Of a stretch of 64,000 nucleotides of DNA, positions 40,112-45,812 are shown one piece after another. Origin of the DNA: Geothrix paludis (GTDB lineage Bacteria > Acidobacteriota > Holophagae > Holophagales > Holophagaceae); contig NZ_JAKZLC010000002.1 in the NCBI RefSeq assembly GCF_022808815.1, forward strand, positions 1 through 64,000, in the 5' to 3' direction. The notes under the pieces are model-generated. The model saw nothing but the letters and a program-made list of their open reading frames with translations. It had not been told where the DNA came from and did no database searches. Numbering within the stretch: the stretch's first letter is position 1; every line of letters begins with the position of its first letter. The position numbers and the translations under genes are program-made.

Positions 40112-40996
40112 ATGGCCCGCCCTCCCGTCCTCCCCGGCCCCCGTCCCGATTGGCTGAAGATCCGCGTTCCAGCGCCAGAGGTGGTGGCGGAGGTCGAGGG
40201 GCTCATCCGCGAGCAGCGGCTGGTGACGGTCTGCGAGGAGGCCCGCTGCCCCAACCTGCACGAGTGCTGGGGCGTCCATCGCACGGCCACCTTCATGCTC
40301 ATGGGCGACGTCTGCACCCGGCACTGCGGCTTCTGCAACGTGGGCAAGGGCCGCCCGGGCGAGCTGGACCCGGAGGAGCCCCAGCGCGTAGCCGAAGCCG
40401 TCGCCCGCCTGGGCCTGAAGTTCGCGGTGGTCACCTCCGTGAACCGCGATGACCTTCCGGACGGGGGTTCCGCGCACTTCGCCGCCACCATCCAGTGGAT
40501 CCGCACTCTGTCGCCCCACTGCGGGGTGGAGGTGCTCATCCCGGATTTCCGCGGCCGCGAGGCGGACCTGCTCACGGTGCTGGAGGCCCGGCCCGATGTG
40601 CTGAACCACAACGTCGAGACGGTGCCCCACCTCTACCGGCGGGTGCGGCCGGACGCCGACTACGCCCAGAGCCTCACGGTGCTGCGCCGGACGGCGGAGT
40701 GGCGCGATGTCCACGCCCCGGCCATGCGCGTGAAGAGCGGCATCATGGTGGGCCTGGGGGAGACGCCGGAGCAGGTGCTCGAGCTGATGGCCGACTGGCG
40801 GAAGAGCCGCGTGGACATCGCCACCATCGGCCAGTACCTTCCCCCTTCGGAGCTGCACCTGCCCCTGGACCGCTTCGTGGAACCGGCCGAGTTCGATCTG
40901 TACCGCCGGAAGGGCCTGGAGATGGGCTTCCAGCGGGTGGAGTCCGCCCCGCTCGTACGGTCCAGCTACCACGCGAAGGAGAGCTTCGAGGGCTAG
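40112..40996 (+). CDS. lipA: Lipoyl synthase
   Basis: A 294-residue radical SAM enzyme that inserts two sulfurs into octanoyl-protein to form lipoate. The auxiliary cluster cysteines are C41, C46 and C52 (CEEARCPNLHEC). The radical SAM cysteines are C68, C72 and C75 (CTRHCGFC). The C-terminal RSSYHA serine motif is present. Neither lipB nor an obvious lipoyl enzyme is adjacent. Instead its 3' end converges 46 bases from a response regulator carrying a GcvH-like domain. Confidence 0.96.
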   Translation: MARPPVLPGPRPDWLKIRVPAPEVVAEVEGLIREQRLVTVCEEARCPNLHECWGVHRTATFMLMGDVCTRHCGFCNVGKGRPGELDPEEPQRVAEAVARLGLKFAVVTSVNRDDLPDGGSAHFAATIQWIRTLSPHCGVEVLIPDFRGREADLLTVLEARPDVLNHNVETVPHLYRRVRPDADYAQSLTVLRRTAEWRDVHAPAMRVKSGIMVGLGETPEQVLELMADWRKSRVDIATIGQYLPPSELHLPLDRFVEPAEFDLYRRKGLEMGFQRVESAPLVRSSYHAKESFEG

Positions 40997-41042: not shown

Positions 41043-42164
41043 TCAGGCCCGGGCGTGCTCGCTCTGTCCCAGGAACTGCTTCTCGAAGGTGGACCAGTCC
41101 AGGGTGCCGGCCGCCAGAGGCGTCTCCGCGGTCCTGAAGCGGGTGATCTCGTCCTGGTACCAGTCGATGACGGGTTGCCCGATCTTGAGGTCCGCCAGCT
41201 CGCCGGCCAGGTCGCTGGGCGTCATCAGGCAGACCCAGCCGCGATCGTAGGGGCTGTGCATGAGGTCGGAAGGCGTGGAGAGGAGGCCCTCATTGTGGTG
41301 CTCGACGCTTCCGCTGAGCGGCGCGGCCACGTGGACTTCGCCGGAGGCGCCCTTCAGGGTGAACAGGATGTCGCCCTGCCGCACCGTCTTCCCGCGTTCC
41401 GGAAGCACCACGCCCTTCACCGAGCCGAGGGCCTTCCGCACGAAGTCATCGATGCCCACGCGGATCTGGCCCTCGGGCTCGATGCGCACCCAGGCGTGGC
41501 CCGTGGACAGGAACGCGCCGCCGGGCACGCAGAACTCGCTGGCGGACAAAACCTCGGCCATCTCAGGCGCCACCACGCGCACGTTCGGGCGCCGCTGGGC
41601 CTCGATGCGGGCCTCGCGCTTGATGAGGATCTTCTTCGCGAACTCGGCCAGCTCGTCGGCGGTGAAGGGTTTCTGGACGTACTCGCAGGCCCCGAACTGG
41701 AGAGTCTGCACCGCGGTGTCGATGCTGCCGTAGCCGGTGATCACCACCACGTCGAGGTCCGGCCGCAGGTGCTTGGCCCCCTTCACCACATCCACACCAT
41801 CCATGTCCGGCATCTTGAGGTCCGTGAAGAGGAAGTCGTAGTCGTGGCGCTGGATCAGGCCCAGGGCCTCGGGGCCGTGCTCGACGGTGTCCACGCTGAA
41901 GCCTTCGAGTACCAGGATCCGCCGGAAGGAGTCAAGCACCACGGCCTCGTCGTCTACCGCCAGGATCCTGGCCTTGGGATTGGGGACCTCCACGCGCTTC
42001 AGGCTCTTGGCCTCGTAGGTGAAGTCGAGGTGGATGGCTGTGTTCAGCACCGCTTCCCGGGCCTGACGCTCGCGCTTCTCGCGCATGCGGCGGAGGCTCG
42101 TGCGCACCAGGAAGTCGATGCCCACGAAGGCGACGAACATGAAAAGGATCAGCAGGGCGGTCAT
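41043..42164 (-). CDS. Membrane-anchored response regulator fused to a GcvH-like domain
   Basis: A 373-residue protein. Residues 3-20 are a membrane segment, followed by a basic region. The receiver domain (about 66-180) has D71/D72, phosphoacceptor D115 in FTDLKMP, T143 and K165. There is no DNA-binding domain. Residues about 213-330 resemble glycine-cleavage H protein (GHAWVRIEPEGQIRVGIDDF, APLSGSVEHHNE, SPYDRGWVCLMTPSD). Aligned on the APxSG turn, the lipoyl-lysine position is Ser274; the nearest lysine is K271. It starts nine bases after the kinase stop with GGAGG. Output is probably protein-protein. Confidence 0.88.
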   Translation of the reverse strand: MTALLILFMFVAFVGIDFLVRTSLRRMREKRERQAREAVLNTAIHLDFTYEAKSLKRVEVPNPKARILAVDDEAVVLDSFRRILVLEGFSVDTVEHGPEALGLIQRHDYDFLFTDLKMPDMDGVDVVKGAKHLRPDLDVVVITGYGSIDTAVQTLQFGACEYVQKPFTADELAEFAKKILIKREARIEAQRRPNVRVVAPEMAEVLSASEFCVPGGAFLSTGHAWVRIEPEGQIRVGIDDFVRKALGSVKGVVLPERGKTVRQGDILFTLKGASGEVHVAAPLSGSVEHHNEGLLSTPSDLMHSPYDRGWVCLMTPSDLAGELADLKIGQPVIDWYQDEITRFRTAETPLAAGTLDWSTFEKQFLGQSEHARA

Positions 42165-42173
42165 GGGAACCTC

Positions 42174-43706
<1,533 letters not shown>

Positions 43707-43707
43707 G

Positions 43708-44886
43708 CTAGCTCCTCCTGGAGAGCTCCTTGGCGCCAGCGACCGGACCCTCGGGGAAGACCGAGAAGGTGCGGACCGCGAAGGCGAAGACCGCCATGCC
43801 GATGGCTACGAGGCCGAGGGAGACGGTGATCTCCATGGCCGAGGGAAGGTAGCGGGTGCCGGAAGCCGCCTCCATGCCCGTGATGCTCACGTTGAGGCGG
43901 TTCATGACGAACCCGAGCACCGCGAGGAAGGCGCCCGCCACCAGCCAATCGGGATTCGTGCGAAGCTTCCGGAAGGACATCAGCACCACAGGCAGCACCA
44001 CGCCCAGCGCGAACTCGAGGAGGAACATGCGCCCTTCATAGCTGAGGTCGAAGATCGTCCCGAACGCATGGTTGCGGGCGATCCCCTGCAGCCGCATGAG
44101 GCCGTAGATGCCGAGCGCCACCACCATGCCCCGGGCCAGGGGCTCCAGGAGATCCATCTCCAGGTGGCGGTGGAAGGCCCGCTTGCTGAGGTAGGATTCC
44201 AGGATGATCATGCCGATGCCCGCCCCGATGGCCGAAATGTAGAAGTGCAGCGGCAGCATCGGCGAATACCAGAGCGGGTGCAGCTTGCTGGGAACGATGA
44301 GGTAGAGGGATCCCAGCGAGGACTGGTGGAGTGTCGAGAGGATCACGCCGAGGATGACCAGGGGCGTGATGAGCTGGTGGATGAACTTCGCCGGCGCGTG
44401 GAAGCCGAAGTACTCGAAGACCACCGGCGAGAACTCCACCGCCAGCACCGTGGTGTAGAGCATCACGCACCAGGCCACCTCGAACATGACCGAGTGCGTG
44501 TTCCAGTAGACGATGGCATGCCAGATGCGCCAGGGCTGGCCCAGGTCCAGCAGCAGCGCCACGATCACGAAGGCGTAGCCCAGGAAGCCCGTGAGGATGG
44601 TGGGGCGCACGATGGGCTCGTAGCGGCGCAGGTTGAAGAGATGGACCACCGCCGTGAGGGTGAATGCGCCGGCGGCCAGGCCCACGCCGCAGAGGAGGTC
44701 GAAGCCGATCCAGAGACCCCAGGGGAACTGGTCGCTCAGATTGGTGACGGCGCCCAACCCTTTGGTATAGCGGATCACGGACACGGCGCAGAACGCGAGG
44801 AAGAGGAGCACGAAGACCGCGGTCCAGAAGCCGGGCCGGAAGCGGCGTCCGGCCAGCGTGGCGGGCGTGGTGAGCGTGGTGTTCAT
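43708..44886 (-). CDS. NrfD/HybB-type integral membrane subunit
   Basis: A 392-residue protein with about ten hydrophobic helices and the HybB/NrfD pattern, including QFPWGLWIGFDLLCGVGLAAGAF near the N-terminus and LHPLWYSPMLPLHFYISAIGAG in the middle. Such subunits exchange electrons between quinones and a partner Fe-S protein and may couple this to proton movement. The ATG at 44886 overlaps the Fe-S gene stop by ATGA; the open frame above it is a shadow. No hydrogenase, nitrite or polysulfide reductase catalytic gene is adjacent. Confidence 0.9.
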   Translation of the reverse strand: MNTTLTTPATLAGRRFRPGFWTAVFVLLFLAFCAVSVIRYTKGLGAVTNLSDQFPWGLWIGFDLLCGVGLAAGAFTLTAVVHLFNLRRYEPIVRPTILTGFLGYAFVIVALLLDLGQPWRIWHAIVYWNTHSVMFEVAWCVMLYTTVLAVEFSPVVFEYFGFHAPAKFIHQLITPLVILGVILSTLHQSSLGSLYLIVPSKLHPLWYSPMLPLHFYISAIGAGIGMIILESYLSKRAFHRHLEMDLLEPLARGMVVALGIYGLMRLQGIARNHAFGTIFDLSYEGRMFLLEFALGVVLPVVLMSFRKLRTNPDWLVAGAFLAVLGFVMNRLNVSITGMEAASGTRYLPSAMEITVSLGLVAIGMAVFAFAVRTFSVFPEGPVAGAKELSRRS

Positions 44887-45662
44887 GACCGGTCCTCCCG
44901 TCCGTGGCCTTGCCCGTCGCGACCGTTCCCGTTTCCATTGGCCGTGGCCTTCGCCACCTCCTCCCGCCGGGCGGTGATCCAGTGCACCCCGTAGAGGAAG
45001 ACGGCCCATACCGCGACGAAGTCCGGGATGTTGGACAGCACCTGCCAGGTCTTCATGGCCGGAGGCTCTCCGGGCAGGTTGGACTTCAGCCCCAGCTTGT
45101 CGAAGGGCACGTTGGAGATCATCAGGACCGACGTGCCGCCGGCCTCCGTGAGCCCGTAGATGTGGTCGACGTAGGCGCCGGGCTTCTGGCGGATGCGCGT
45201 CCGGGCCTCCCAGATCAAGTCCTCCTTCTTCCCGAAGATGGTGGCCTCCGCCGGACAGGCCTCCGCACAGGCGGTGGGTTTGCCCTCCTTGAGGCGGCCC
45301 GCGCACATGATGCACTTGCCGACCACGGGCACGGGCCGGTCCCACTGGTACTTCGGGATCTCGAAGGGGCAGGCCATCATGCAGTAACGGCAGCCCATGC
45401 AGCGCTCGGCATCGTAGACCACGGGGCCTTCCGGCGTCTTCTTCAGGGCGCCCACGGGGCAGACGGAGGCGCAGGTGGGCACTTCGCAGTGCATGCACAG
45501 GCGCCGGACGTTGAGGCCCTCCCGCTCCTGGACCGTGGTCCAGGTATAGGCCGTCAACACCTCCTCTACCTTCCCCGGTAGCTTGTTCTGCTCCTTGCAG
45601 GCGGAGCTGCAGGCGCCGCATCCGATGCAGCGCGTCGCGTCAAAGAGAAGGCCCATGCCCAT
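44883..45662 (-). CDS. 4Fe-4S dicluster protein (HybA/NrfC-like) with C-terminal membrane helix
   Basis: A 259-residue ferredoxin-like subunit with four cysteine clusters: CIGCGACSSAC, CMHCEVPTCASVC, CMGCRYCMMAC and CIMCAG...CAEAC, enough for four 4Fe-4S clusters. One C-terminal membrane helix (FVAVWAVFLYGVHW) anchors it. There is no Tat or Sec signal, so the clusters probably face the cytoplasm, unlike HybA or NrfC. The ATG at 45662 has AGGAG six bases upstream, so the longer frame to 45725 is unlikely. It is the first gene of the four-gene operon. Confidence 0.9.
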   Translation of the reverse strand: MGMGLLFDATRCIGCGACSSACKEQNKLPGKVEEVLTAYTWTTVQEREGLNVRRLCMHCEVPTCASVCPVGALKKTPEGPVVYDAERCMGCRYCMMACPFEIPKYQWDRPVPVVGKCIMCAGRLKEGKPTACAEACPAEATIFGKKEDLIWEARTRIRQKPGAYVDHIYGLTEAGGTSVLMISNVPFDKLGLKSNLPGEPPAMKTWQVLSNIPDFVAVWAVFLYGVHWITARREEVAKATANGNGNGRDGQGHGREDRS

Positions 45663-45788
45663 GGGTTCTCCTGCTTTTTCAAGGTGCCCGGGAGACATTC
45701 CCGGGGGTTCGGAAGAAGCATCCATTCGGTCGGGACCATAGTCAACCCCTTGGTAGCAATTAAAAATGACGATGTTGTCTGATATAAG

Positions 45789-45812
45789 AAAAAAGCCTCA
45801 CTTGCGCGAGGC
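45789..45812 (-). terminator. Rho-independent terminator with GCAA tetraloop on the minus strand
   Basis: On the minus strand GCCTCGC-GCAA-GTGAGGC forms a 7-base stem (one G-T pair) capped by a GNRA tetraloop and followed by six T. It lies about 130 bases upstream of the Fe-S gene and does not directly follow a coding gene. Confidence 0.8.

Follow-up and report, generated by a model that had tools for sequence, protein, structure and literature searches.

A predicted membrane-anchored response regulator from Geothrix, called REC-H here, has as its output a domain with the fold of the glycine cleavage H protein (GcvH), and the sequences of its relatives argue that this fold has very probably been repurposed and is no longer lipoylated. 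The loss of the lipoyl lysine is older than the fusion of the domain to a receiver and is common to a large family, whose members are referred to as K-less proteins. The H domain may be a binding or scaffold module whose state would be set by phosphorylation of the receiver, which is intact and invariant. REC-H was found in a window (the whole stretch of DNA that was analysed) of 64,000 nucleotides, in the genome of a Geothrix related to G. terrae, with 97% in the domain.

Layout of the REC-H protein

The features of the REC-H gene and of the genes transcribed with it are collected in Table 1. The Pfam match of the receiver has an E-value of 7.7e-27, and the response-regulator signature is complete: the acidic pair D71/D72, the phospho-acceptor Asp D115, T143 in the Thr/Ser position and K165 are invariant in the 38 homologues aligned. 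In the AlphaFold model, the N-terminal helix (residues 2-42) has a hydrophobic segment at its start, and positive residues (RTSLRRMREKRER) follow the anchor. Because of these residues, and by general knowledge of membrane topology, an orientation with the N-terminus outside and the receiver and barrel in the cytoplasm is favoured. No DNA-binding domain was found in REC-H by Pfam. Both the anchor and the missing DNA-binding domain had been proposed in an earlier, sequence-only reading of this DNA, and both are borne out by the model helix and the Pfam search. With a pTM of 0.56, the model does not give a fixed arrangement of the receiver and the H domain.

The idea that REC-H is a pseudogene or a sequencing artefact was ruled out, since the frame is open in nearly all homologues. 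An antisense open frame of 924 aa (window 41055-43829, + strand) covers REC-H and the kinase gene and is a high-GC shadow ORF.

Table 1. Features of the REC-H gene and its operon, in window positions
Feature	Position	Strand	Basis
4Fe-4S (FeS) protein; best NCBIfam HmcB, 256 bits, below the 420 cut-off; no Tat signal seen	44883..45725	-	
NrfD-family integral membrane subunit; best NCBIfam HmcC, 343 bits, below the 550 cut-off	43708..44886	-	
Sensor histidine kinase: sCache-like periplasmic sensor, HAMP, HisKA, HATPase	42174..43706	-	Pfam, profile, fold search
CYACH, predicted heme-binding motif of kinase sensor	43353..43367	-	CxxCH in 68/69 homologous kinases
CSTAACH (CX4CH), second heme-like motif of kinase sensor	43218..43238	-	68/69 homologous kinases; invariant columns
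REC-H protein, 373 aa: membrane anchor, receiver, lysine-less GcvH-like domain, C-terminal extension	41043..42164	-	ORF, Pfam, AlphaFold/Foldseek, 67 loci with homologues
N-terminal membrane anchor of REC-H, residues 1-22, MTALLILFMFVAFVGIDFLVRT	42099..42164	-	Model helix 2-42; ungapped similarity to H-like anchors
Receiver domain of REC-H, residues 67-174	41643..41966	-	Pfam, alignment A3
GcvH-like barrel of REC-H, residues 211-323	about 41175/41196..41534	-	Pfam 222-320, model, Foldseek
Ser274 codon, lipoyl-lysine slot, 8 residues before Pro282	41343..41345	-	Alignment
Lys271 codon, nearest lysine, aligned with Glu of GcvH ESVK	41352..41354	-	Alignment
Family-specific C-terminal extension of REC-H, residues 330-364, invariant W335, E339, F364	41073..41177	-	Alignments A1, A3; model helices 330-344, 357-364
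Terminator-like hairpin between groEL and FeS gene	45795..45812	-	Consensus scan only

The H fold and the missing lysine

The H domain is matched by Pfam GCV_H (PF01597) with an E-value of 4.8e-15 and 56 bits against a cut-off of 22.2, and a phmmer search of the PDB returned 13 glycine-cleavage H proteins (E 5e-14 to 2e-9). Residues 211-323 were modelled with a pLDDT of mostly 89-96, and the best Foldseek matches of the domain were GcvH structures, with target-normalised TM scores of 0.93-0.94 and an rmsd of 1.0-1.3 A. Since the barrel is confident and GcvH structures ranked first, a fold that has nothing to do with the lipoyl barrel is excluded as far as prediction goes. The sequence-only reading had aligned residues ~213-330 with GcvH, in agreement with these searches, and the domain, at about 41175-41534, falls inside the interval 41150-41560 it had given. 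REC-H shares with GcvH the same barrel (TM 0.93) and the conserved H/W, VGI-D, P-SG and PY-GW signature, but it has lost the lipoyl lysine of the (E/D)S(V)K hairpin, ESVK included, has gained an anchor, a receiver and a C-terminal extension, and reaches 56.9 bits in the GcvH equivalog (TIGR00527) against a cut-off of 115.85.

In the model, S274 forms the tip of the beta hairpin 266-272/275-280. The slot region reads ILFTLK271-GA-S274-GEVHVAAP282LSG, and K271 and S274 lie within FTLKGASGEVHVAAPLSG. The numbering and the alignment of the sequence-only reading, which had put Ser274 in the place of the lysine with K271 as the nearest alternative, were both right. Homologues were gathered by genome search, by a scan of genome contigs (alignment A2) and from fetched neighbourhoods. 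Lysine fills the slot in 21/21 canonical GcvH proteins, a class named by its motif, in 2/71 REC-H proteins and in 1/59 other H-like proteins; the three K-less-family sequences that have a slot lysine are missing the ESVK context. The same pattern was seen in 34 further Thermodesulfobacteriota domains (slot lysine in two, one of them LbpA/GcvH-like with ESGKW). The residues found in K-less slots are varied (A, T, S, G, E, L, D and others), which means that nothing specific has replaced the lysine and the slot is free of constraint. K271 is conserved in close relatives only. Lipoylation at K271 was judged unlikely, since this residue occupies the Glu position of ESVK and distant members have others in its place, and a recent loss of the lysine in a single species was ruled out by the slot counts and the tree described below. 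The genome carries a separate canonical gcvH with ESVK. The proposal of a reused, non-lipoylated fold is therefore well supported by a slot without lysine in 69/71 REC-H and 58/59 other H-like proteins, by the lack of conservation of K271 beyond close relatives and by the separate gcvH.

One could still consider that the domain works as a carrier, being acylated or having some other group on a different residue. The GcvH fold has been retained, and the lipoyl synthase gene lipA is a convergent neighbour in the window and in several Geothrix loci, but the slot residue is highly variable, K271 is not conserved in distant members, no lipA-like gene follows REC-H in the listed loci of other genera or phyla, and even LbpA, a known GcvH-like carrier outside glycine cleavage, strictly conserves its lysine (PMC6067878). 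A carrier role is very improbable. In the window, lipA (40112-40996, + strand) ends 46 bases from the REC-H gene end, and no terminator was found between the two genes. A functional link to lipA was rejected, and the adjacency is probably a coincidence because it is not seen in more distant loci.

LbpA is a close precedent for a repurposed H protein. In the sHdr systems of sulfur oxidisers, this GcvH relative has been recruited to electron transfer outside glycine cleavage (PMC6067878, PMC10332631); its lipoyl lysine is strictly conserved and two additional Cys are usual, and the main text of the LbpA paper does not mention a response regulator (PMC6067878). REC-H is not an LbpA, as it has no lysine and its neighbours are FeS, NrfD and histidine kinase genes rather than the shdr context. 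Another GcvH-like protein of 139 aa (L256:7780-8196(+), VESGKWVGKVFAP) has kept a slot lysine in a context unlike ESVK, adjoins a large CxxCH-containing protein and may be LbpA-like.

Many residues of the H domain and extension are invariant across phyla (H223, W225, D239, D240, F241, N291, W310, W335, Y336, E339 and F364). This speaks against a purely structural role, in which the H domain would be a spacer or oligomerisation unit of a folded or dimeric protein and the receiver a phosphate sink or kinase specificity tether. The absence of unique catalytic residues from the H domain would suit such a role, as would the extra stand-alone receiver beside REC-H in several Eisenbacteria and related loci; however, the H-like protein also occurs in the same type of neighbourhood without a fused receiver. 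On balance, a mere spacer seems quite unlikely.

The operon and its relatives

In the window, the genes are ordered FeS, NrfD, kinase and REC-H, neighbours overlapping or being set apart by a few bases, and the hairpin upstream suggests a transcription unit separate from groEL. While the flanking genes differ, this order recurs in Holophagaceae and a further acidobacterial family, and also in Ca. Eisenbacteria and a deltaproteobacterial MAG; some loci add a c7-type cytochrome and a second receiver that stands alone. This conserved order strongly supports the NrfD link that had been guessed from the sequence alone. NrfD was present in 56 and the kinase sensor in 59 of 67 REC-H loci, and most of the 11 loci that have no NrfD are short contigs or lie close to a contig end. 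In 40 loci of H-like proteins without a receiver, there was NrfD in 29, FeS in 30, the kinase sensor in 26, an NtrC-type regulator in 30 and an archaemetzincin (M54) in 26; these loci were drawn from the stronger profile matches and are not a random sample, so the percentages are not population values. By comparison, all five genes were absent (0/20) from canonical gcvH loci of 16 kb each, picked beforehand by gene position. Such a neighbourhood is a functional link and not proof of contact.

The best matches of the FeS and NrfD subunits are HmcB and HmcC of the Hmc-type transmembrane complexes, but their scores below the equivalog cut-offs make them relatives rather than members. In addition, the two subunits are paired with the kinase and REC-H, and the operon has no multiheme cytochrome gene. 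No Tat signal is visible on the FeS protein in the window and in most REC-H loci, so this protein may face the cytoplasm, within reach of the barrel.

Neither an NtrC-type regulator nor an archaemetzincin occurs in any of the 67 REC-H loci, and the genome that the window comes from has no M54. It thus seems that REC-H takes the place of the separate regulator. Its receiver resembles those of NtrX, NtrC and DctD in structure (Foldseek), but compared to NtrC-type systems, which pair a histidine kinase with a sigma-54 response regulator, REC-H lacks the AAA+ and DNA-binding parts and has the H domain as its output. Bacterial archaemetzincin genes are consistently found in H-like/NrfD/kinase clusters (L094:2889-3491, L096:12861-13370, L099:2020-2565 and 23 further loci), which may point to what these proteins do in bacteria.

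The same neighbourhoods could be read the other way, with the H domain as a sensory or feedback module that reads the redox or quinone state of FeS/NrfD on the cytoplasmic side and tunes the phosphatase activity of the kinase via the receiver. The respiratory complex would then be a co-sensor, with a transcriptional output elsewhere. The NrfD and kinase neighbourhood backs this too, and in the REC-less loci, the NtrC-type regulator is the output and the H-like protein is separate. Nevertheless, REC-H loci have no such regulator, so an output would be needed elsewhere, and the C-terminal domain of a two-domain response regulator is normally its effector; the feedback reading is considered unlikely.

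The kinase sensor

The Cys and His columns of the kinase sensor are invariant in its relatives. Its profile matches the Geobacter c-heme sensors GSU0582 (5e-6) and GSU0935 (2e-3), and a fold search with its model retrieved Cache folds including GSU0935, with the heme loop modelled at low confidence. The sole Pfam match is Mcp40H-20_sensor, below the cut-off. The sensor thus combines a Cache fold with CxxCH, as in sCache_heme (DUF3365) domains, and differs from them by its extra CX4CH motif. These domains were recently described to bind c-type heme and to have NO-sensor-like properties when fused to signalling modules (PMC12889525). The resemblance suggests that the signal is probably redox or NO, heme attachment itself being a prediction from the motifs.

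Origin of the K-less family

In a tree of 109 domains, canonical GcvH is split from all K-less proteins by a branch with 100/99 support, and 32 of the 34 REC-H rows form one group nested within the K-less side. The second-copy REC-H proteins of L091 and L184 are placed elsewhere, and the REC-H rows are joined by L040, a fragment from a contig end that had been labelled H-like. The K-less proteins have in common a C-terminal extension in which a W, an E and an F are invariant (alignment A1), and they usually also carry an N-terminal anchor. REC-H itself has the marks of the family, namely no slot lysine, the W/E/F extension and a clade apart from GcvH. When its anchor (26 residues) was compared to those of REC-less H-like proteins, ungapped and with shuffling, 26 of the 37 tested were alike at p<0.01 (for example MTAILVILTIMAFVGVDAIVMAFRRR). 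This likeness indicates that the receiver was probably inserted between a pre-existing anchor and the H domain. The simplest history, as read from these sequences, would be that a GcvH duplicate lost its lysine and gained an anchor and tail, and that the receiver was later placed between anchor and barrel.

The family has several other arrangements. In L091 (6010-6834) and L184, a second REC-H lies beside the anchored one, the L091 copy without an obvious anchor, and in Eisenbacteria and L147, a stand-alone receiver is found where the second REC-H would be. Four H-like ORFs are in tandem in L237:5156-8112(-). In Thermodesulfobacteriota, ORFs of ~975 aa (L239:6607-9522(-), L240:6270-9203(-)) end in a K-less H-like domain and adjoin an apparent HdrA-type flavoprotein. 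Many H-like proteins (L158, L243-L246, L250-L254 and L043) have one or two segments rich in Cys (CIWMEAGVVSYKLCDxNYDCxTCxYDxAM) ahead of the H domain, which may be a metal or FeS site; their genes are often beside those of a kinase, an NtrC-type regulator and an archaemetzincin.

Proposed mechanism

In the proposed mechanism, the periplasmic c-type-heme sensor of the kinase would read a redox or gas signal, and the kinase would phosphorylate Asp115 of the receiver, whose signature residues are invariant. Phosphorylation may then move the attached H domain or alter its dimerisation, and this domain would dock on the FeS/NrfD quinone-oxidoreductase complex through its barrel face and the family-specific C-terminal extension. 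Docking would gate or assemble this complex post-translationally and not via DNA. The predicted fold and heme motifs, the family-wide missing lysine, the intact receiver, the anchor and the conserved operon come directly from the sequences and models; heme attachment, phosphotransfer, docking and the direction of control are what we infer from them, and the chain as a whole, from heme kinase through D115 to a non-lipoylated H fold docked on FeS/NrfD, is judged slightly the better bet. The docking target could be another protein.

A broader reading is more tentative, and we hold it to be plausible yet rather doubtful. The K-less proteins may be a widespread family of lipoate-free H-fold docking switches that couple heme two-component signalling post-translationally to FeS/NrfD; in Geothrix and its relatives, a built-in receiver would have replaced an ancestral transcriptional regulator and archaemetzincin.

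Significance

The usual targets of response regulators are DNA, enzymes or second messengers. REC-H is a two-component output by a repurposed fold, itself a known kind, within the K-less family. No paper describing REC-H, or the K-less family with NrfD/M54, was found in the open-licence literature (GcvH + response regulator; NrfD + archaemetzincin; Geothrix + NrfD), and the K-less family looks undescribed. Many genes in Acidobacteriota and Thermodesulfobacteriota are likely labelled "glycine cleavage system H protein" even though they have no lipoyl lysine and belong to a different system. With a retired cofactor-carrier fold as its output, and with its gene conserved in one operon beside those for a predicted heme-sensing kinase and a quinone/FeS complex, such a response regulator would give metal-reducing bacteria and their relatives a direct route from signal to respiration. 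The family to which REC-H belongs gives a hint that respiratory complexes may be tuned by the cell directly, bypassing DNA.
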